Shown here one piece after another: positions 921 through 9,867 of a stretch of 11,065 nt of DNA. The notes below the pieces were generated by a model, which saw only the letters and a program-made list of their open reading frames with translations, was not told the DNA's origin and made no database searches. A program made the translations under genes and the position numbers. How positions within the stretch are numbered: the first letter of the stretch is position 1; every line of letters starts with the position of its first letter. This DNA comes from an uncultured Alphaproteobacteria bacterium (GTDB lineage: Bacteria > Pseudomonadota > Alphaproteobacteria > Paracaedibacterales > CAIULA01), in the NCBI GenBank assembly GCA_903905285.1, contig CAIVFQ010000149.1, forward strand, positions 1 to 11,065. Direction: 5' to 3'.

Positions 921-1489
921 TGTTACGCATCATTTCTGGTCGCTGGCGCCAACACCGTTTACACCTGCCGCCGCCCTCTGTGACGCGCCCAACCACTGAC
1001 CGGGCACGAGAGGCGCTTTTTAATATATTGGCTCATGGTTGCGGCCTGGATTTTGAGGGCTTAACCGTTTTGGATGCGTTTGCTGGGTCAGGGTCTTTGG
1101 GCCTTGAATCCTTGTCCCGTGGCGCGCAATTTGTTTATTTTATGGAAAATAACCCTCAGGTTCTGAAGGTTTTAAGGGCGAACATTCAATCGTTAAAGGC
1201 AGATGAATCTTGCTCTGTTCTAAAGGGCAATCTTCCTGATGTATCTCAGGCCTTTTGTGCGGTGGACTTGGTGTTTTTAGATCCCCCTTATCAGCAGAAT
1301 CTGGCCGTACCTGCCTGTGTTGCATTGCAAAAAAAAGGCTGGCTAAAACCTGAAACCTTGATTTGTGTTGAGACGTCAGCCCACGACATTCCAACCTCTA
1401 TTCCGGGTTTAATTTGTGATCAACAGCGCCAATATGGGCAATCGGTCATAACTTTTTGGCGTGTCCAAGAGGCAGATGATTCTTTTTAA
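920..1489 (+). CDS. rsmD: 16S rRNA (guanine(966)-N(2))-methyltransferase RsmD
   Basis: S-adenosylmethionine-dependent enzyme that methylates N2 of G966 in 16S rRNA during small-subunit assembly. The 189-residue product shows the family layout: RIISGRWR at the start, TRPTTDRAREALFNIL (residues 22-37), SAM-binding motif I VLDAFAGSGSLG (50-61), and the catalytic DPPY (121-124) within VFLDPPYQQN. The length is normal for RsmD. The ATG shares one base with the lolA stop (TAATG), which suggests reinitiation by ribosomes finishing lolA. The 3' end overlaps the stop of the convergent minus-strand gene by four bases, leaving no room for a separate terminator between them. All key residues are present and the gene looks functional. 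Confidence 0.95.
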   Translation: MLRIISGRWRQHRLHLPPPSVTRPTTDRAREALFNILAHGCGLDFEGLTVLDAFAGSGSLGLESLSRGAQFVYFMENNPQVLKVLRANIQSLKADESCSVLKGNLPDVSQAFCAVDLVFLDPPYQQNLAVPACVALQKKGWLKPETLICVETSAHDIPTSIPGLICDQQRQYGQSVITFWRVQEADDSF

Positions 1490-2099
1490 CGCTTTAAGAA
1501 AGCTTTTATCAAATCACACGCTGAGGCAAACACCTTAGGGAAAGTTGTTCCATAGACTTGGCTTTCGCATTTTAAAATTAAAAGGTTTTTGCGGGTTAAG
1601 GGAAAAGAAAGATCAACCCTCTTTTTTTTCTGTATAACTTTAGCAAGGCGTTTTTGGAGAGTGCTAATCTCTCTGTCGATTCGTTTAATACGATCGTTTA
1701 TAGCGTCTGCAAAATGAACATGTTTGCCCGTTTGGGGTTTCTTAGTCCCTTGTTTGCGCAAAATCTTCTTAATCAGGGAACGAATGCGCTGATCAATATC
1801 TTGTCGGAAAATCATACGATCCGAAGGCGTGCGGTCCAAAGTCGTTTTCTGATCTAGATTTATAGTATTGGGTAGAACGAGAAAATCCTCTTCTATTCCC
1901 GCAAGGATTGCGAATTCCCGTGGTGTTAGAAAAGATTGATGAGGCATTATTGCTAGTGTCTGTTTAGGCCTTAGCTCTATGCCTATAGGTGATAGGACTA
2001 GATCTTTTGGTCGCCTGCCTGGCAGGCTGAGACCAAAATAGTTATCAAAACAGTAAAAAGGGCAGATGAATAACAAATATCTCTTAAATAATTTGTCAT
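1486..2099 (-). pseudogene. Probable frameshifted lipoprotein gene, function unknown
   Basis: Two overlapping frames appear to be pieces of one gene. The first starts at ATG 2099-2097, seven bases after an AAGGG ribosome site. It encodes a 33-residue peptide with a typical lipoprotein signal (hydrophobic FTVLITILVSAC, lipobox VSAC, Cys26) and stops at TAG 2000-1998. The second frame, open to TAA 1488-1486, has only a TTG (2076) or an internal ATG (about 1947) as start and no good ribosome site. It encodes the mature part, including a basic helical stretch (INDRIKRIDREISTLQKRL). The frames join if one CAGG unit is added to the CAGGCAGG run (minus strand of 2014-2021), giving ACQAGRRPKDL and a lipoprotein of about 205 residues. 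I do not recognise the family; a faint resemblance of RPKDLVLSPIGIEL to the start of BamF/DUF3035 lipoproteins is too weak to name. The alternative is an ordinary gene starting at the internal ATG. Confidence 0.5.
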
Positions 2100-2115
2100 A
2101 ATCTTGCCCTTTTTA
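2054..2115 (-). promoter_or_regulatory. Long hairpin over the lipoprotein start; terminator or translation control
   Basis: TAAAAAGGGCA (2054-2064) pairs with TGCCCTTTTTA (2105-2115). GAT/ATC and an inner ACAAAT (2073-2078)/ATTTGT (2091-2096) extend the stem. Read on the minus strand, the 5' arm contains the AAGGG ribosome site of the ATG at 2099, and the 3' arm ends in TTTTTA. It may terminate the gene ending at 2140 (25 bases upstream in the direction of transcription), sequester the lipoprotein ribosome site, or both. Confidence 0.5.
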
Positions 2116-2139
2116 AATCACTTTCTTTTTAACAGGTTT

Positions 2140-3483
2140 TTATTTCTTTCCATCCTGTTCTTTGTGTCCTGCTATTTCTACGCTAGCCGCCGCTGCTGCC
2201 TGTGGGGTGGCCTCGAAAACAACCCGATTGTGTGTTCTTGCAGCTGCTAGTTTAAGGGCATTATTAGAAATCATTGCTTGAAGATACCTTTGGTAATGAA
2301 CCTCTGCGTCACCAGCATTATCCATTAACATTTCATGGGTGATTGACATGCTTGACGGAAGGGCACTGATACCAGTAACAGCAAGACGATCGGTATTTGC
2401 TGACCAACTTGGCAGAGAAAATGCCCCCCAAAACATAGGAACCCAGGCTCTATGAAAAGGATACATGGCATGCATTAATGCTTCTGCACTTAAGATCTGT
2501 GCTTTAAATTTTCCGATATTTTCTTTTTGACTCTTGGCTGTTTTTTCATAGGCAGAGCGGGTCTCTGCGTTCTTTTCGGCCTTAGCAAGCTCTTCTAATT
2601 CACTGACGCTTCTCTTAAGGGTTTCAACCGCATTTAGGGTGTATTCCATAAATTGTTGAGTTTGTCCAAGATGAAAAAGGGCTTCGTTAACTAACAAACT
2701 ATAGTTAGCAATTTTCGTTCCCAAACTTGCTGAAGACGCTTGCAAATCACCCAACACACCATCTGTTCTCGCGGCTATTCGGTCATCTAATACCTTTTTT
2801 TGAGTTGTCATTTCCAGAATTTCGGCACTTAACCAGCTCATGACGTTTTGACGACGTGTCGCAAAAGGATATGAACCAGGTGACTCAGATTCAATTCCGT
2901 ATTGATAGAATCTATCTGCGGCCAGGCTATAAAAATCATTAAATTCAAGATCTGAGCTTGGGGTGTAAGGCTTAATCGTTAATGCATGGGGTAAAGTAAA
3001 TGACGCTGAGTTATCTAGGCGTGTTTCGCCGTAAACAGCAGCCCCTGCACTAAGATCTCTTTCTAGCCCCTCTAAGGCGGCAGATGATGCCACAATAACA
3101 GCAGTAGCTGTTGCAGGTGCTCCAGAATCGTGGATTTCAACAACTTCTACTCTTACTGCTTCTTCTTTCTTTTCTTCTTTAACGCCCACTTGTGCTGATG
3201 CAGCGGTAAGGACAGATACAGATGAAAGGAAAGCTGCGCCTGGAAGGGTATCATCTGATGCTGTAGATTCTAAGGTGCCTAGGCCTCCTGTTGTTGGTGC
3301 AGCAGATCCCCTATCGTCTTCTACAACCGCGGGTAAGGAAGGCTGCAGTTGTTGGGCGCGTTTAAGGGCGCGTCGTTGTGCCCCAGTTAAAGGTTTCTCA
3401 GCAGCATAGCTGTTGGATATAAAAGCTGTGGAACTGGCTAATAACAAACTAACGGACAATAATTTGGAAATTGCGAATGACAT
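2140..3483 (-). CDS. Secreted coiled-coil protein of unknown function
   Basis: I do not recognise this family. From ATG 3483-3481 the product has 447 residues; a GTG 12 bases upstream would add MSVS but lies against the AAG/GAG ribosome-site region, so I prefer the ATG. An N-terminal signal peptide (MSFAISKLLSVSLLLAS) ends around NSYAA before EKPL, so export is likely. The mature protein has a basic patch (AQRRALKRAQQLQ), a long low-complexity Ala/Ser/Val/Thr region (about 50-150), and a helical second half. The clearest coiled coil lies at about 285-340 (ETLKRSVSELEELAKAEKNA onward). A Trp/Phe-rich stretch follows (FHRAWVPMFWGAFSLPSW), then an Ala-rich tail ending KEQDGKK. There are no cysteines and no second membrane segment, so it is probably periplasmic or released. 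It may be a host-interaction factor or a structural envelope protein; this is a guess from composition only. Confidence 0.75.
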   Translation of the reverse strand: MSFAISKLLSVSLLLASSTAFISNSYAAEKPLTGAQRRALKRAQQLQPSLPAVVEDDRGSAAPTTGGLGTLESTASDDTLPGAAFLSSVSVLTAASAQVGVKEEKKEEAVRVEVVEIHDSGAPATATAVIVASSAALEGLERDLSAGAAVYGETRLDNSASFTLPHALTIKPYTPSSDLEFNDFYSLAADRFYQYGIESESPGSYPFATRRQNVMSWLSAEILEMTTQKKVLDDRIAARTDGVLGDLQASSASLGTKIANYSLLVNEALFHLGQTQQFMEYTLNAVETLKRSVSELEELAKAEKNAETRSAYEKTAKSQKENIGKFKAQILSAEALMHAMYPFHRAWVPMFWGAFSLPSWSANTDRLAVTGISALPSSMSITHEMLMDNAGDAEVHYQRYLQAMISNNALKLAAARTHNRVVFEATPQAAAAASVEIAGHKEQDGKK

Positions 3484-3715
3484 ACTTACGCTCACTTTCT
3501 CAAGAACTGATGATCAAGTTGTTAGGTGTACTTATTACCTAATCTTAGAATTGTATGTCTTAAAATAACATTAAGGAAAGGACATTTTTTTTACGAGTCC
3601 TTTGATGCCATATACCAATTAAAGTGAATGTCTTCTGTGAACGGCACTAGACAACGGCCGAAAATCCTTTTATAAAAAGCATAAGGTAAGCGTGCGTTAG
3701 AAGCGTTCTTATCTT

Positions 3716-3791
3716 GCCCAGATAGCTCAGTTGGTAGAGCAAGGGATTGAAAATCCCTGTGTCGTTGGTTCGATTCCGACTCTGGGCACCA
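3716..3791 (+). tRNA. tRNA-Phe (anticodon GAA)
   Basis: All cloverleaf parts are present. Acceptor GCCCAGA (3716-3722) pairs with TCTGGGC (3781-3787). D stem GCTC/GAGC encloses AGTTGGTA. Anticodon stem AGGGA/TCCCT holds loop TTGAAAA with anticodon GAA at 3749-3751. The variable loop is five bases (GTGTC). T stem GTTGG/CCGAC holds TTCGATT. The discriminator is A3788 and CCA is encoded at 3789-3791. There is no intron and no mismatch in the stems. It stands alone, between two minus-strand genes for exported proteins. Confidence 0.99.
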
Positions 3792-3810
3792 TTTTCCCAT
3801 CTTATGCCCA

Positions 3811-3846
3811 TATAAAAAAAGCACCCTGTCGAATTGACAGAGTGCT
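3811..3846 (-). terminator. Intrinsic terminator of the six-cysteine protein gene
   Basis: AGCACCCTGTC (3820-3830) pairs with GACAGAGTGCT (3836-3846) around loop GAATT, ten base pairs with one C/A mismatch. Read on the minus strand the stem is followed directly by seven T (3820-3814). It lies about 80 bases past the stop of the gene ending at 3929 and stops read-through into the antisense of the tRNA. Confidence 0.85.
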
Positions 3847-3928
3847 GAGTATGTTTTCAAGAAAAATCCCGAATTATAGGGCCCTAATTATAGCGGGTTG
3901 CCGTATTCGTGTTTTCTTTGTTTTGTTA

Positions 3929-4591
3929 TTAGCACACGCCGTTAGCTTGATCGTCTTCTGAACAAGCAGGAGCTGCTGGTTCTTCCTCGGCCGCTGCTGC
4001 ATCATCCAAAGGTGCTCCATCATCCAAAGCTGCTTCGCCGCCATCCGTTAGGTCGTTTTCAGGGTCTTGACCTGCTGCATCTTCTTGTTCTGATGCCATA
4101 CGTTCAGCTTCAGCTGCTGCTGCTGCTGCTGCTTGTTCTGCCTGTTTCTGTTTTGCCAAAGCGACTTTATGGTCTGCCAATGCTTTTGCGTGTGCAGCTT
4201 TTGCTTTCTGTTGTGCTACCTTTTTTGCATTAGAATCTTTGATAGCAACAAGATGTTGTTTGGTCTTAGCAGCTGCTATGTGTGTGTTGTTAACCAGGCC
4301 GGCTTTTGAACAAGCCATTTGAAGGTTCTTATCTTTTTTCATGGCTGCTTTAGCTTGTGGTGTAGAGCAGTGGGCTTTAACGAACGCTGCCGAAAAATTT
4401 TTAATGGAGTTAGGGTCAACCTCATGGATACACTTTTCATTAAAAGCCATGCTTTTTGGATCTGATTTTACAGCCGCTTTAGCTGTACATGTTAGCCTGT
4501 TAGGCCCCATGCCAAACGCAGCATTCGCGGTATTGGTGTAGCCAAAGGCAATTAACCCTACGGCTGCAATATATTTCAAGTTCTTTAACAT
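3929..4591 (-). CDS. Exported six-cysteine protein with Ala/Lys-rich middle and acidic tail
   Basis: No family recognised. The start is supported by a strong ribosome site, AAAGGAG, nine bases before the ATG. The 220-residue product begins with a clear signal peptide (MLKNLKYIAAVGLIAFGYTN, cleavage likely after TANA-24). The mature N-terminal part (25-100) carries Cys35, Cys54, Cys75 and Cys94, spaced 19-21 residues apart, suggesting a small disulfide-bonded domain. Residues 105-165 are rich in Ala, Lys and Gln with a run of seven Ala (154-160) and look like one long charged helix. Residues 165-209 are highly acidic (DGGEAALDDGAPLDDAAAAE), and the end holds Cys210 and Cys220, the latter being the last residue. 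It is likely periplasmic or secreted. It is a single-gene unit with its own terminator. Basic and acidic halves could interact with nucleic acid, envelope polymer or a partner, but nothing identifies which. Confidence 0.8.
   Translation of the reverse strand: MLKNLKYIAAVGLIAFGYTNTANAAFGMGPNRLTCTAKAAVKSDPKSMAFNEKCIHEVDPNSIKNFSAAFVKAHCSTPQAKAAMKKDKNLQMACSKAGLVNNTHIAAAKTKQHLVAIKDSNAKKVAQQKAKAAHAKALADHKVALAKQKQAEQAAAAAAAEAERMASEQEDAAGQDPENDLTDGGEAALDDGAPLDDAAAAEEEPAAPACSEDDQANGVC
4113..4133. repeat. (GCT)7 trinucleotide repeat within a coding region
   Basis: Seven uninterrupted GCT units encode, on the minus strand, the seven-alanine run of the exported six-cysteine protein. Length changes by slippage would alter the linker by whole residues without shifting the frame. 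Confidence 0.9.
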
Positions 4592-4744
4592 AATCTATAC
4601 TCCTTTTAACAATTAAAAAATAAATACTAAATCAATATTTTTCGATCTTTAATTACATTCTACTTGCTAAAAGTTAACAAAACGTCAATATTTCAAGATT
4701 ATTTAAAAAAATAATTCCTTGTACCAATTACCATCCGCCTCATT

Positions 4745-4750
4745 TATAAT
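4745..4750 (+). promoter_or_regulatory. Perfect -10 box just ahead of lptE; leaderless start likely
   Basis: TATAAT ends seven bases before the lptE ATG (4758), so transcription would begin at or next to the A of the start codon. The best -35 (TTGTAC, 4719-4724) sits at a long 20-base spacing. No Shine-Dalgarno sequence precedes the ATG, as expected for a leaderless message. Confidence 0.4.
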
Positions 4751-4757
4751 CCCCTCC

Positions 4758-5258
4758 ATGAAGCTTTTTTCATTTCTTCTTATTATCCTTATTTTGGCTG
4801 GTTGTGGGTTTCGACCTTTGTATAAGCAGTCGTCAAACGTTTCGACCGCTTTTGTGTTAGAGGTTAAAGGCAATAACGAGGAAGCTTATGGAACCTATAA
4901 GTTCAAAAAAGAATTAACACCGCTTATTGCCCACATTAATAACCCCGCCATTCATAAAATTTCTATATCGCTGAGTGAAAACTTTGGGGACATTGGCTAT
5001 GCGGCTGATGCCTCGGCCTTGCGGTCGCAAGGGCGGGTTGTGGCGTTGATTGAAATCTATGACGCTAATCGCCAGCTTATTTATCAAAACAAGGTGGATT
5101 CTATCAGTTCTTATACAACCGATATATTAGAGGAGTTTTCAAACCTGAATGCCAAAATGGCGACGCGGGAACGATTGATGGTCAGCCTGGCACAAAGTGT
5201 TGCACGCGATATTCAGATTTTAAACTCGGGCAGCCTGCTGCCACGCTTGGAACATTAA
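4758..5258 (+). CDS. lptE: LPS-assembly lipoprotein LptE
   Basis: Predicted outer-membrane lipoprotein that plugs the LptD barrel and helps insert lipopolysaccharide. From ATG 4758 the product has 166 residues: a lipoprotein signal peptide MKLFSFLLIILILAGC with lipobox LAGC (Cys16), then GFRPLY, the hallmark of the alphaproteobacterial LptE family. Beta-strand-rich sequence and a C-terminal helix (NAKMATRERLMVSLAQSVARDI) complete the expected architecture. A TTG 39 bases upstream would add 13 residues ahead of the signal peptide and is unlikely. In many alphaproteobacteria lptE lies between leuS and holA; here it stands alone. Its last 39 bases overlap the 3' end of the convergent asnB. Family assignment rests on the lipobox context, length and C-terminal pattern, since the family is poorly conserved. 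Confidence 0.85.
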   Translation: MKLFSFLLIILILAGCGFRPLYKQSSNVSTAFVLEVKGNNEEAYGTYKFKKELTPLIAHINNPAIHKISISLSENFGDIGYAADASALRSQGRVVALIEIYDANRQLIYQNKVDSISSYTTDILEEFSNLNAKMATRERLMVSLAQSVARDIQILNSGSLLPRLEH

Positions 5259-7145: not shown

Positions 7146-8162
7146 ATGAAAAAAAGCCTGGCATTCTTTTTGGTTGTGTTCTGCTTTATGGCATCCTTTG
7201 CCTTTAGCGAAGAAACGTCTGGTCTTCAGAATCATTCGGAGGTTAAGCCGTCTAAACCCCCACAGGATCTGCACTTGAAAGATAAGAAAAAAGTCGTCGT
7301 CGGGATTTTTCTTAGCAGTATTACCAATTTTAGTCTGTCAAAACGCACCGCTGATTTGGGCTTCTATGTTTGGTGGCGAGGTCCTTATTCTGACTATAAT
7401 CCTGTTGAACATACAGAAATCGTTAATTCACCTGATTACAAAAAACTTTGGGGCGAAACTTCCACAGTTGGCAATGACTATATTACTGTTGTTCGTTATT
7501 TTTCTCAAATTCGTAATAACTGGGAAGTTACACATTTTCCTTTCGATAGACAAGAAATTACCATTTCCATGGAGGATACGGTCCATGATATCGACAGCCT
7601 TCAGTTTATTCCTGATGTGGAATTCAGCGGCATTTCTCGGCGTCTACAACTAGGTGGTTGGACTATTACGGGTGTAAAGATGTCCAGTTATCCAAATTTA
7701 TACATGACAAATTATGGAGATCCATCCAAGGATGAAAGCGTTTTCTCGCGTGTTTCTATGGTTATTGAATTAAAACGATTGGGGGGGCGTATTTTCTTTA
7801 ATTATTTTGTTGGCTTCTTTTTGGCTGCTTTTTTGTGTGGCATGACTTTTTGTGTGGAAACCTCAAACTTAATGGCCCGATCAAACTTAACCGTGGCGTC
7901 TATTTTTGTTGCTGTGGGGAATAAATATATCCTTGATCAATCATTGCCCTTGACATCCATTTTTAGTTTGGCTGACGCGATTCAGATTTCAACCTTTTTG
8001 CTAATAACCCTTACTGTTTCAACAAACGTGGCTTGTAACTTTTTGCATAAAGCGGACCATTCCAAAAAGGCCCTATTCTTTAATAAACACCTGGGAATCA
8101 CAATGATTCTTTGTTATGTAAGTTACTTGAGTTATATGATCCTTTCTTCCATTTATTCTTAA
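7146..8162 (+). CDS. Bacterial pentameric ligand-gated ion channel (Cys-loop receptor superfamily)
   Basis: Predicted inner-membrane channel with a periplasmic ligand-binding domain. The 338-residue product starts with a signal peptide (1-21, cleavage near FAFS before EE). A beta-rich extracellular domain (about 45-212) follows, with FYVWWRGPY (73-81), EIVN (91-94) and the family hallmark HFPFDRQ (130-136). The canonical Cys-loop cysteines are replaced (N124 and I138), as in other prokaryotic members. Four membrane segments follow: M1 about 216-236, M2 about 246-262 ending before SLP, M3 about 274-296, and C-terminal M4 about 314-336. Aligned without gaps to the M2 of GLIC as I recall it, residues -1' and 0' are Ala-Arg and 9' is Phe. 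The length suits the family. No Shine-Dalgarno sequence is visible and a TATATT box (7129-7134) lies close to the ATG, so the leader may be very short. A decayed tandem copy follows. The ligand cannot be inferred. Confidence 0.87.
   Translation: MKKSLAFFLVVFCFMASFAFSEETSGLQNHSEVKPSKPPQDLHLKDKKKVVVGIFLSSITNFSLSKRTADLGFYVWWRGPYSDYNPVEHTEIVNSPDYKKLWGETSTVGNDYITVVRYFSQIRNNWEVTHFPFDRQEITISMEDTVHDIDSLQFIPDVEFSGISRRLQLGGWTITGVKMSSYPNLYMTNYGDPSKDESVFSRVSMVIELKRLGGRIFFNYFVGFFLAAFLCGMTFCVETSNLMARSNLTVASIFVAVGNKYILDQSLPLTSIFSLADAIQISTFLLITLTVSTNVACNFLHKADHSKKALFFNKHLGITMILCYVSYLSYMILSSIYS
7746..8162 (+). repeat. Direct repeat, unit 1: membrane half of the channel genes
   Basis: This 417-base stretch matches 8821-9238 with no gap except the extra G of the second copy. 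By eye about 38-40 positions differ, so identity is about 90%, and many differences are synonymous. Identity falls sharply upstream of the shared TCGCGT at the left edge. Confidence 0.9.
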
Positions 8163-8198: not shown

Positions 8199-8237
8199 GG
8201 ACGAAATGGAACAATTATGAAGACTGGTCCCTATTTT

Positions 8238-9238
8238 ATGATAAAGAAAATACTCTTTCTTTTGGTTGGGCTCTGTTTTTCTATTTCTTTTGCCTATGCC
8301 CAAGAAATGCCCCCTCATGATTCTTCTAAAGCGGCGGAGAATATTGAATCAAAAGATAAGAAAAAAAATTGTTGTCGGGTTTTTTATAACCAATATCTCT
8401 AAAATTGATCTTGGAAAAAAGTTCGTTAATGTAGACTTTTCCCTCTGGTGGCGAAGTCCTTATGGTGACTATGATTATGTAAAAAACATGGAAGTTGTTA
8501 ATGCATCCGATGTCAAAATGGCTTGGATAATTTCTCATAAAATTGAGAATGATTATGCCACGATTGCCCGCTTTTCATGTGATGTTCGTAATAATTGGGA
8601 GGTTACAAATTTTCCCTTTGATAGGCAAAAGATCGTCTTGTCTATATAATCCATTAACGATGAACGTAAAGATCTTCAATTTGTTCCTGACATTAAAAAT
8701 AGTAATATTTATTCAGACCTAATCCTACACGGATGGACAATTCTTGATGTGAAGCTAACTGAGGAACTCTATCTATACAACACAGGCTTTCAATACCCCA
8801 ATCAAAGCGAGGGTCTTTATTCGCGTATTTCCATGGTTATTGAATTAAAACGATCGGGGGGGGCGTATTTTCTTTAACTATTTTGTTGGTTTCTTTTTAG
8901 CTGCTTTTTTGTGCGGTATGACTTTTTGTGTGGAAACCTCAAACTTAATGGCCCGATCAAACTTAACCGTGGCGTCCGTTTTTGTTACCGTGGGGAATAA
9001 ATACATTCTTGATCAATCATTGCCTTTGACATCTGTTTTTAGTTTGGCTGATGCGATTCAGCTTTCGACTTTTTTGCTAATAACCCTTACTGTTTTAACA
9101 AACGTGGTCTGTAACTTTTTGCATAAAACGGACCATTCCCAAAGGGCCCTATTCTTTAATAAATACCTGGGAATCACGATGATTCTTTGTTACGTGAGTT
9201 ACTTGAGTTATATGGTCCTTTCTGCCATTTATTCGTAA
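8238..9238 (+). pseudogene. Decayed tandem copy of the ligand-gated ion channel
   Basis: The whole channel architecture can be followed, but in three pieces. From ATG 8238 a signal peptide MIKKILFLLVGLCFSISFAYA leads to ESKDKKK, where a run of eight A (8361-8368) shifts the frame by +1 relative to the intact copy. The next frame continues IVVGFFITNIS through SLWWRSPYGDY and NFPFDRQK to a TAA (8647-8649) at the position of Glu143 of the intact copy. After the stop homology continues (LQFVPD, ILHGWTI, SRISMVIELKR) to a run of eight G (8856-8863; seven in the intact gene at 7781-7787), a second +1 shift. The remaining frame covers M1-M4 to TAA 9236-9238. An upstream in-frame ATG at 8217 is also possible but does not align with the intact start. 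With three independent lesions no full-length protein is possible. The ligand-binding part has roughly half identical residues to the intact copy, against about 90% DNA identity over the membrane part. Confidence 0.92.
8821..9238 (+). repeat. Direct repeat, unit 2: membrane half of the decayed copy
   Basis: Second unit of the direct repeat that starts at 7746, 418 bases long because of one additional G in the homopolymer at 8856-8863. It encodes the end of the binding domain and M1 to M4. Confidence 0.9.
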
Positions 9239-9306: not shown

Positions 9307-9867
9307 CTATTCAGCGGTATTCTTTGAATAATCAACTTTGCTGACTGTTTGCCCAACAGATACACCGTCTTGACCAAATTCAAAAACGGTATTTTCCCTT
9401 GTTGTCACGTACAATTCTAGGAACAATCTATCGGCCGTTTGTTCAAAACTTCCTATGCGGCAATTCCCATAGGCAATTGTTTGCAGCTTAACTTTAAGAG
9501 CCTTAGCATTCCCTAGCCTCACTATGGTTACCAATTCAAGATGTTCACCTGTATTCATTTTTGTTTCTAATACGGGAGCATAACTACCATTAGGAATTTC
9601 CAGTTCAAGCAAAGAATGCCCTAATGTTGCTGAGGTAAAAAGAAGGTTACCAAGGTCGCCTGTGGTTTTACGTTTGGACGCACCCTTCCAAGTAAAAAGT
9701 TGGGCATGATCTTCAAAACCATCAACGCTTGATTTTAAAAGGTCTCCGATGTTAAGCATCCACTCAGGCGTCCGAACACCTGAGTGGGGGCCGCCGTGTT
9801 GCAAGGGATCATCCGTTGGGTTGCTAAAATGATTGATTTGGCGTGGCAGCTGGTATTGAACAGACAT
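9307..9867 (-). CDS. Possible Hcp-like (type VI secretion tube) protein, otherwise hypothetical
   Basis: The start is supported by AGAGG six bases before the ATG. The 186-residue product has no signal peptide or membrane segment and is predicted to be a soluble, beta-strand-rich protein. Its order of elements recalls Hcp, which stacks as hexameric rings in type VI secretion: VDGFEDHAQLFTWKGAS (48-64) resembles the segment where Hcp proteins have an acidic turn followed by a WSWG-like strand. A hydrophobic helix-like TSATLGHSLLELEI, strands LELVTIVRLG and ALKVKLQTIAYG, and a C-terminal KVDYSKN follow in a comparable order. These are fold-level similarities by eye, with an N-terminal extension of about 40 residues that typical Hcp lacks. 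No other secretion gene is in the window. It is divergently transcribed from the thiolase gene over an AT-rich gap of 115 bases. Confidence 0.35.
   Translation of the reverse strand: MSVQYQLPRQINHFSNPTDDPLQHGGPHSGVRTPEWMLNIGDLLKSSVDGFEDHAQLFTWKGASKRKTTGDLGNLLFTSATLGHSLLELEIPNGSYAPVLETKMNTGEHLELVTIVRLGNAKALKVKLQTIAYGNCRIGSFEQTADRLFLELYVTTRENTVFEFGQDGVSVGQTVSKVDYSKNTAE
9760..9787. repeat. Perfect 9-bp inverted repeat inside the Hcp-like gene
   Basis: CCACTCAGG (9760-9768) and CCTGAGTGG (9779-9787) flank a 10-base loop. It falls at codons 27-36 of the minus-strand gene (PHSGVRTPEW), so its mRNA could fold near the start of translation. Confidence 0.7.

Follow-up and report, generated by a model that had tools for sequence, protein, structure and literature searches.

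A receptor-channel gene and its genomic setting

The window, i.e., the whole stretch of 11,065 nucleotides that was analysed, carries two tandem pLGIC genes on its forward strand, an intact one at 7146..8162 (copy 1; 338 open codons, 338 amino acids) and a degraded paralogue at 8217..9238 (copy 2; start read by eye). Copy 1 begins with a predicted signal peptide at 7146..7211 (about residues 1-22 by eye; an N-terminal helix spans residues 2-25 in the structural model), and its extracellular domain (ECD) is therefore expected in the periplasm. This domain, a beta-sandwich in the AlphaFold2 model (7284..7778, residues 47-211), contains the Pro-loop FPFD (7536..7547, residues 131-134), which is invariant or nearly so in the clade alignments, and a region assigned to loop C by profile alignment (YMTNYGDP; 7701..7724, residues 186-193), whose usual form in the clade is YxTxFGDP and which is a candidate ligand-contact loop. 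The membrane domain (TMD) comprises M1 (7785..7847, residues 214-234, from model and alignments), M2 (7869..7943, residues 242-266), M3 (7968..8051, residues 275-302), and M4 (8061..8156, residues 306-337), the last two taken from the model. No Cys pair flanks the Pro-loop, and residues 47-211 are devoid of any Cys. Sequence and model thus confirm the FPFD hallmark, the lack of Cys-loop cysteines, and the four membrane segments that had been listed in a preliminary description of this DNA.

The monomer model (mean pLDDT 91.3, pTM 0.81; input alignment of 60 sequences) predicts the pLGIC fold, i.e., an ECD beta-sandwich and four helices. Its top Foldseek matches in the PDB were GABA-A and GLIC chains (E of 4e-19 to about 1e-18), and the VIA-align scores, with structural matches beginning at residue 42, were tied among families on the VIA list (GluCl, 25.2; GABA-A, 25.1; GlyR, 24.8; GLIC, 24.6). 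A profile of 17 relatives matched GLIC and chimeras with E values down to 2.2e-21; the best E value of the single-sequence search was 1.7e-5, and the scores in Pfam (13.9 bits; cut-off, 26) and NCBIfam (LGIC_1, 37.7 bits; cut-off, 500) were below the respective cut-offs. Profile matches, model, Foldseek, and VIA-align together bear out the earlier identification as a Cys-loop receptor homologue. At the residue level, FPFD agrees with the [F/Y]PxD signature of the beta6-beta7 loop, in which Pro and Asp reach 100% and 93% among pLGICs (PMC4795631, Table 1). The Trp of the beta9 core is present as the clade-invariant W172, in a GW aligned to the GW of GLIC, R211 aligns with the pre-M1 Arg of GLIC (R192 in Table 1 of PMC4795631), and P268 represents the Pro of the M2-M3 loop. 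The clade-invariant G223 of M1 aligns to the M1 Pro of GLIC; at this position (M1 14'), Pro is found in 77% of pLGICs, and the Gly of copy 1 is a listed substitute (5%; PMC4795631).

The source genome is a draft of 1.65 Mb in 217 contigs, and no further copy of the pLGIC gene was found elsewhere in it. The neighbours include a LolA gene (Pfam) and genes that were recognised by eye only, for an asparagine synthase, an acetyl-CoA acetyltransferase, and RsmD-like and LptE-like proteins; no sensor partner for the pLGIC was seen among them. Predicted proteins encoded on the minus strand at 1486-2076, 2140-3495, and 3929-4591 stayed below the curated cut-offs of both Pfam and NCBIfam. A 186-aa orphan is encoded at 9307-9867, also on the minus strand; an Hcp-like reading of it, made by eye, found no support and the protein is left unassigned, as it had no significant match in Pfam, NCBIfam, or the PDB, PF05638 was not found in the genome, and its single-sequence model (pLDDT 36) was worthless.

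A role in chemotaxis has been proposed for bacterial members (Tasneem et al., PMC549065). The draft genome has no match to PF00015 (MCPsignal) at E<=0.01, a domain found in 8 of 14 control genomes, and coupling of copy 1 to chemotaxis in its own genome is therefore unlikely. At locus L009 of a same-genus relative (961-3699, 3662-4861), the pLGIC gene lies divergently beside TssK, DotU/TssL, and HslV. A conserved link to type VI secretion was nevertheless rejected, because the one TssK of the source genome is located on a different contig from the pLGIC gene and because the neighbours at L010 and L089 (RecA and AlaS by eye), two loci that encode an identical pLGIC, and at L090 differ from those at L009. 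A phage or viral origin was likewise rejected, as relatives were absent from viral contigs and no match was obtained in phages. Host association of the source bacterium is a suggestion, with the genome size of 1.65 Mb, the type VI secretion gene, and kin including Candidatus Paracaedimonas acanthamoebae as its basis.

Relatives are sparse and were detected in 5 of 58 near genomes (E<=0.001), 8 of 385 genomes of the class (E<=1e-10), and 16 of 398 genomes of the phylum (second model, E<=1e-20), with the source genome counted each time. Apart from the source genome, the GNK motif of M2 was found at loci in 3 of 7 class-search genomes and 2 of 15 phylum-search genomes, and the clade itself is therefore rarer than the class and phylum counts. 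A same-order genome carries a 101-aa remnant (L007, 1498-1803, minus strand) that consists of a signal-like start fused to M3-M4 only.

Pore mouth of copy 1 and its clade

Profile alignments place the M2 of the clade without gaps onto that of GLIC, and the -2' column of the clade coincides with the Glu preceding M2 of GLIC, which we take to be the GLIC filter residue. Copy 1 thereby has Met243 at -2', Ala244 at -1', Arg245 at 0', Asn247 at 2', and Phe254 at 9', followed by Gly 13', Asn 14', Lys 15', Tyr 16', and Asp 19'; the filter triplet Met-Ala-Arg maps to 7872..7880. The register assumed in the preliminary description (Ala -1', Arg 0', Asn 2', Phe 9') was the same, and the absence of an acid from -2' and -1' implied there extends over -5' to -1'. 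An acidic residue at the intracellular mouth, named in advance as the alignment result to be set against the anion-type reading, was not seen in the profile alignments, and the nearest kin (P0002, P0003, P0004, and P0007) likewise lack an acid from -5' to -1'. Ala-Arg at -1'/0' without an acid at -1' or -2' corresponds to the A-[R/K] pattern of anion-selective Cys-loop receptors. The proposed likeness to the Pro-Ala-Arg of GlyR and GABA-A receptors held in part: Ala-Arg is present, but the GlyR-type Pro at -2' is replaced by Met243. In the alignment of bacterial M2 segments that had been called for, Met-Ala-Arg without an acid stands, and most relatives carry an acid at -2'.

Relatives were gathered in a first search (17 found among 1,308 candidates), an alignment search (2,523 of 7,995 scored proteins reached E<=0.001, and the motif was read in at most the best 120), and a third search (27 found among 3,510 candidates). 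A motif pattern at M2 13'-19', which itself fixes G13' and K15', was matched by 130 of 133 proteins, the window's own among the 130. All motif-bearing proteins have Arg at 0' and Asn at 14' (130/130 each), nearly all Tyr at 16' (129/130), and 108 of the 130 Asp or Glu at -2'; since Arg 0' is also found in these 108, Arg alone is uninformative on selectivity. GNKY at 13'-16' (residues 258-261 of copy 1) occurs in nearly all members seen, across two phyla, and a pairing of K15' with D19' is raised as a question only.

The distribution among phyla was counted in 84 ORFs from 80 named genome loci (the best 80 of 189 confirmed, the window not included), a biased sample that favours kin of the query alignment. 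An acid occupies -2' in 68 of 71 ORFs of Bacteroidota, in 1 of 1 of Chlorobiota, and in 0 of 12 of Pseudomonadota, the last including mutual near kin, e.g., two Azospirillum and two Rhodospirillales loci. The entire stretch from -5' to -1' is free of acids in 8 of the 12 Pseudomonadota ORFs, an acid being kept somewhere in it by the other 4, and in 0 of the 72 ORFs of Bacteroidota and Chlorobiota; at 0', 82 of the 84 ORFs have Arg and the other 2 have Lys. A subclade of P0124, P0126, P0127, and L022, including Legionella sp. W05-934-2, shows Arg-Pro-Arg over -2' to 0' and thereby a doubly basic mouth. The Parafilimonas-type genome of L064 harbours tandem clade paralogues (3818 and 4896), one with Gly and the other with Asp at -2'.

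In place of the Met -2', Arg 0', and M1 Gly of copy 1, GLIC of Gloeobacter violaceus (PDB 3eam) carries Glu, Asn, and Pro, respectively. Compared with GLIC, copy 1 has an M1-M2 linker that is two residues longer and equals the GlyR/GABA-A length, and in the alignment GLIC lacks the GNKY of copy 1. With 30.4 bits, sTeLIC of a Tevnia endosymbiont (PDB 6fl9) is one of the top TMD matches and likewise, if the suggested host association holds, a bacterial-symbiont pLGIC; its linker is two residues shorter than that of copy 1, and it is aligned without GNKY. In contrast to GlyR, GABA-A, and GluCl, copy 1 has no Cys-loop, no Pro at -2', and no intracellular domain; identities are 11-16% (VIA-align), and the aligned animal chains lack GNKY. 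Bacteroidota members, e.g., P0087 of Flavitalea flava, which is named ligand-gated ion channel, share M2 length, GNKY, R0', and F9' with copy 1 but differ by the Asp or Glu at -2' counted above.

Two quick trees were built with the motif columns masked. In the 67-row tree, the -2' state requires 7 changes, 5 of which are forced by well-supported branches alone; shuffled -2' states gave a mean of 19.5 changes, and 0 of 500 shuffles was as low as observed. The 62-row tree, in which long branches were left out, again requires 7 changes, and a branch with a support of 100 sets apart 22 proteobacterial-type rows, grouped after the first tree and several of them from organisms without a name. The -2' residue is neutral or basic in 20 of these 22 rows, P0125 and P0129 having an acid, and 4 of the 40 remaining rows lack an acid there. 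A single origin of the neutral state was rejected on the 62-row tree (p-AU 2e-100). The tree and its branch states therefore indicate that the filter of copy 1 is a property common to its branch, with several parallel changes elsewhere; as judged from these sequences, a neutral -2' is not peculiar to copy 1.

Tandem copy 2 and the domain boundary

Copy 2 is disrupted at three points, namely by an in-frame stop and by two frame shifts, both of which lie at homopolymers. Its membrane domain (8867..9238, forward strand) is 90% identical to that of copy 1 at the protein level, with a dS of 0.27 and a dN of 0.04 (dN/dS about 0.15), versus a dS of 1.3 in both ECD pieces, which is a rough value. DNA identity of the copies is 55% up to codon 201 and 91% beyond, and this change point (log-likelihood gain, 85) falls at the ECD/TMD boundary. 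P0002 (350 aa), found elsewhere, is an intact relative of copy 2; its ECD shares 69% identity with the ECD piece of copy 2 versus 40% with the copy-1 ECD; for its membrane domain the values are 94% versus 91%. The synonymous rates, rough as the ECD value is, led us to reject protein-level selection as the sole source of the difference between ECD and TMD. Since selection on the protein explains the synonymous contrast poorly, we consider it most likely, from the sequences of the two copies, that recombination at the ECD/TMD boundary exchanged their membrane part.

Four other tandem pairs were found in 109 loci. The pair at L017 points in the same direction as copies 1 and 2 (dS 0.40 in the ECD versus 0.11 in the TMD), the one at L045 in the reverse direction (0.61 versus 1.08), and in those at L064 and L073 dS is saturated or nearly so. 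Conversion of the pore domain is thus not a general rule for tandem pairs. What is new here is the presence of tandem copies with a like pore and an unlike ligand-binding domain, which suggests that sensor domains have been swapped on a single pore.

Ion selectivity and the proposed channel

In animals, cation channels are marked by an acid at -1' and anion channels by Ala-[Arg/Lys]. Experiments with mutants at this position gave a cation-selective GlyR (A-1'E), a slightly anion-selective 5-HT3A receptor (E-1'A), and an animal alpha7 receptor that remained cationic (E-1'A), and in simulations neutralisation of the acid ring made both alpha7 and GLIC anionic (all cited in PMC8011927). The same article describes hydrophilic pore linings in anion channels, and given these, the hydrophobic Phe 9' of copy 1 counts against an anion reading. 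The location of the filter motif is insufficient for selectivity in prokaryotes according to Jaiteh et al. 2016 (PMC4795631). An anion-type basic residue was described in six bacterial sequences by Tasneem et al. 2004, who predicted both selectivities (PMC549065). Bacterial anion selectivity as an idea is thus not new; among the titles and abstract starts of open-licence literature, neither a description of the present clade nor a demonstrated anion-selective bacterial pLGIC was found.

TMD-only profiles of mixed, acid-bearing, and neutral members all ranked animal anion channels or a GlyR-TMD chimera first, at low scores (23.6 to 32.5 bits at best), and no animal cation channel was among the best 60 of 124, 149, and 105 matches, respectively. 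Since the acid-bearing relatives also rank animal anion channels first, TMD likeness does not track the filter and was rejected as selectivity evidence; equal loop lengths may in part account for the ranking. With the single full-length sequence as query, native nAChR alpha chains (E 0.0046) ranked above native GABA-A beta3 (E 0.96). From its filter sequence, anion selectivity is plausible for copy 1, and the chance that it prefers anions is probably about one half.

The pLGICs of unicellular organisms are described by Jaiteh et al. as lacking any known biological role (PMC4795631). For copy 1 we propose, at even chances, a homopentameric ligand-gated channel of the inner membrane that prefers anions or is weakly selective, with a broken tandem copy adjoining it. 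The protein would form the subunit of this homopentamer in a small-genome alphaproteobacterium, and a periplasmic ligand would bind at the subunit interfaces near loop C. The signal would pass, as in other pLGICs, via the Pro-loop, the pre-M1 Arg, and the M2-M3 Pro, all of which are observed in the sequence, and the Phe 9' ring would open as the gate. Given Met, Ala, and Arg at -2' to 0' and the acid-free stretch from -5' to -1', the open pore is expected to favour anions or to be weakly selective, in which case its opening would shift the membrane potential and the anion distribution upon arrival of the ligand. Most Bacteroidota members, which keep the -2' acid, would be of the cation type. 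The tandem copy, now broken, would once have offered the same pore with a different binding domain next to copy 1.

Copy 1 could instead be a cation-selective or non-selective pLGIC, in which the neutral -2' merely lowers conductance and selectivity depends on backbone geometry and on charges elsewhere, namely Glu -7', Asp 19', and acids of the vestibule. The cationic alpha7 E-1'A mutant (PMC8011927) and the insufficiency of the motif in prokaryotes (PMC4795631) argue for this account, as do the acids retained within -5' to -1' in 4 of 12 Pseudomonadota ORFs and at -2' in two rows of the proteobacterial branch, P0125 and P0129. It must, however, accommodate the acid-free stretch of copy 1 and its four nearest kin as well as the slight anion selectivity of 5-HT3A with Ala at -1' (PMC8011927), and we regard it as possible but rather doubtful. 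That copy 1 is decaying or does not work as a channel, like copy 2, with a neutral filter resulting from drift, appears unlikely. The three lesions of copy 2, the L007 remnant reduced to M3-M4, and the few genomes with a relative, both near the source genome and in its class, are consistent with decay; yet copy 1 is open over all 338 codons and has kept FPFD, the pre-M1 Arg, and the M2-M3 Pro, its neutral -2' is common to a deep branch, and the dN/dS between the membrane domains is low, though copy 2 is now broken.

Beyond the homopentameric, anion-preferring or weakly selective channel proposed for copy 1, a wider hypothesis, which we put forward tentatively and consider somewhat doubtful, would be that the clade switched its charge filter repeatedly, that its Pseudomonadota branch, to which copy 1 belongs, holds true anion-selective pLGICs, and that in some tandem copies recombination keeps the pore domains alike while the ligand-binding domain is exchanged, pore and sensor thus evolving as separable modules. 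If recordings confirm the expected selectivities, a single bacterial family would comprise filters with and without an acid on pores that otherwise resemble each other. The rule that links sequence to charge selectivity could then be tested on natural proteins instead of mutants, with the Gly/Asp paralogues of L064 as a natural test pair. Copies 1 and 2, in turn, suggest a route by which new ligand specificities may be fitted to one pore.
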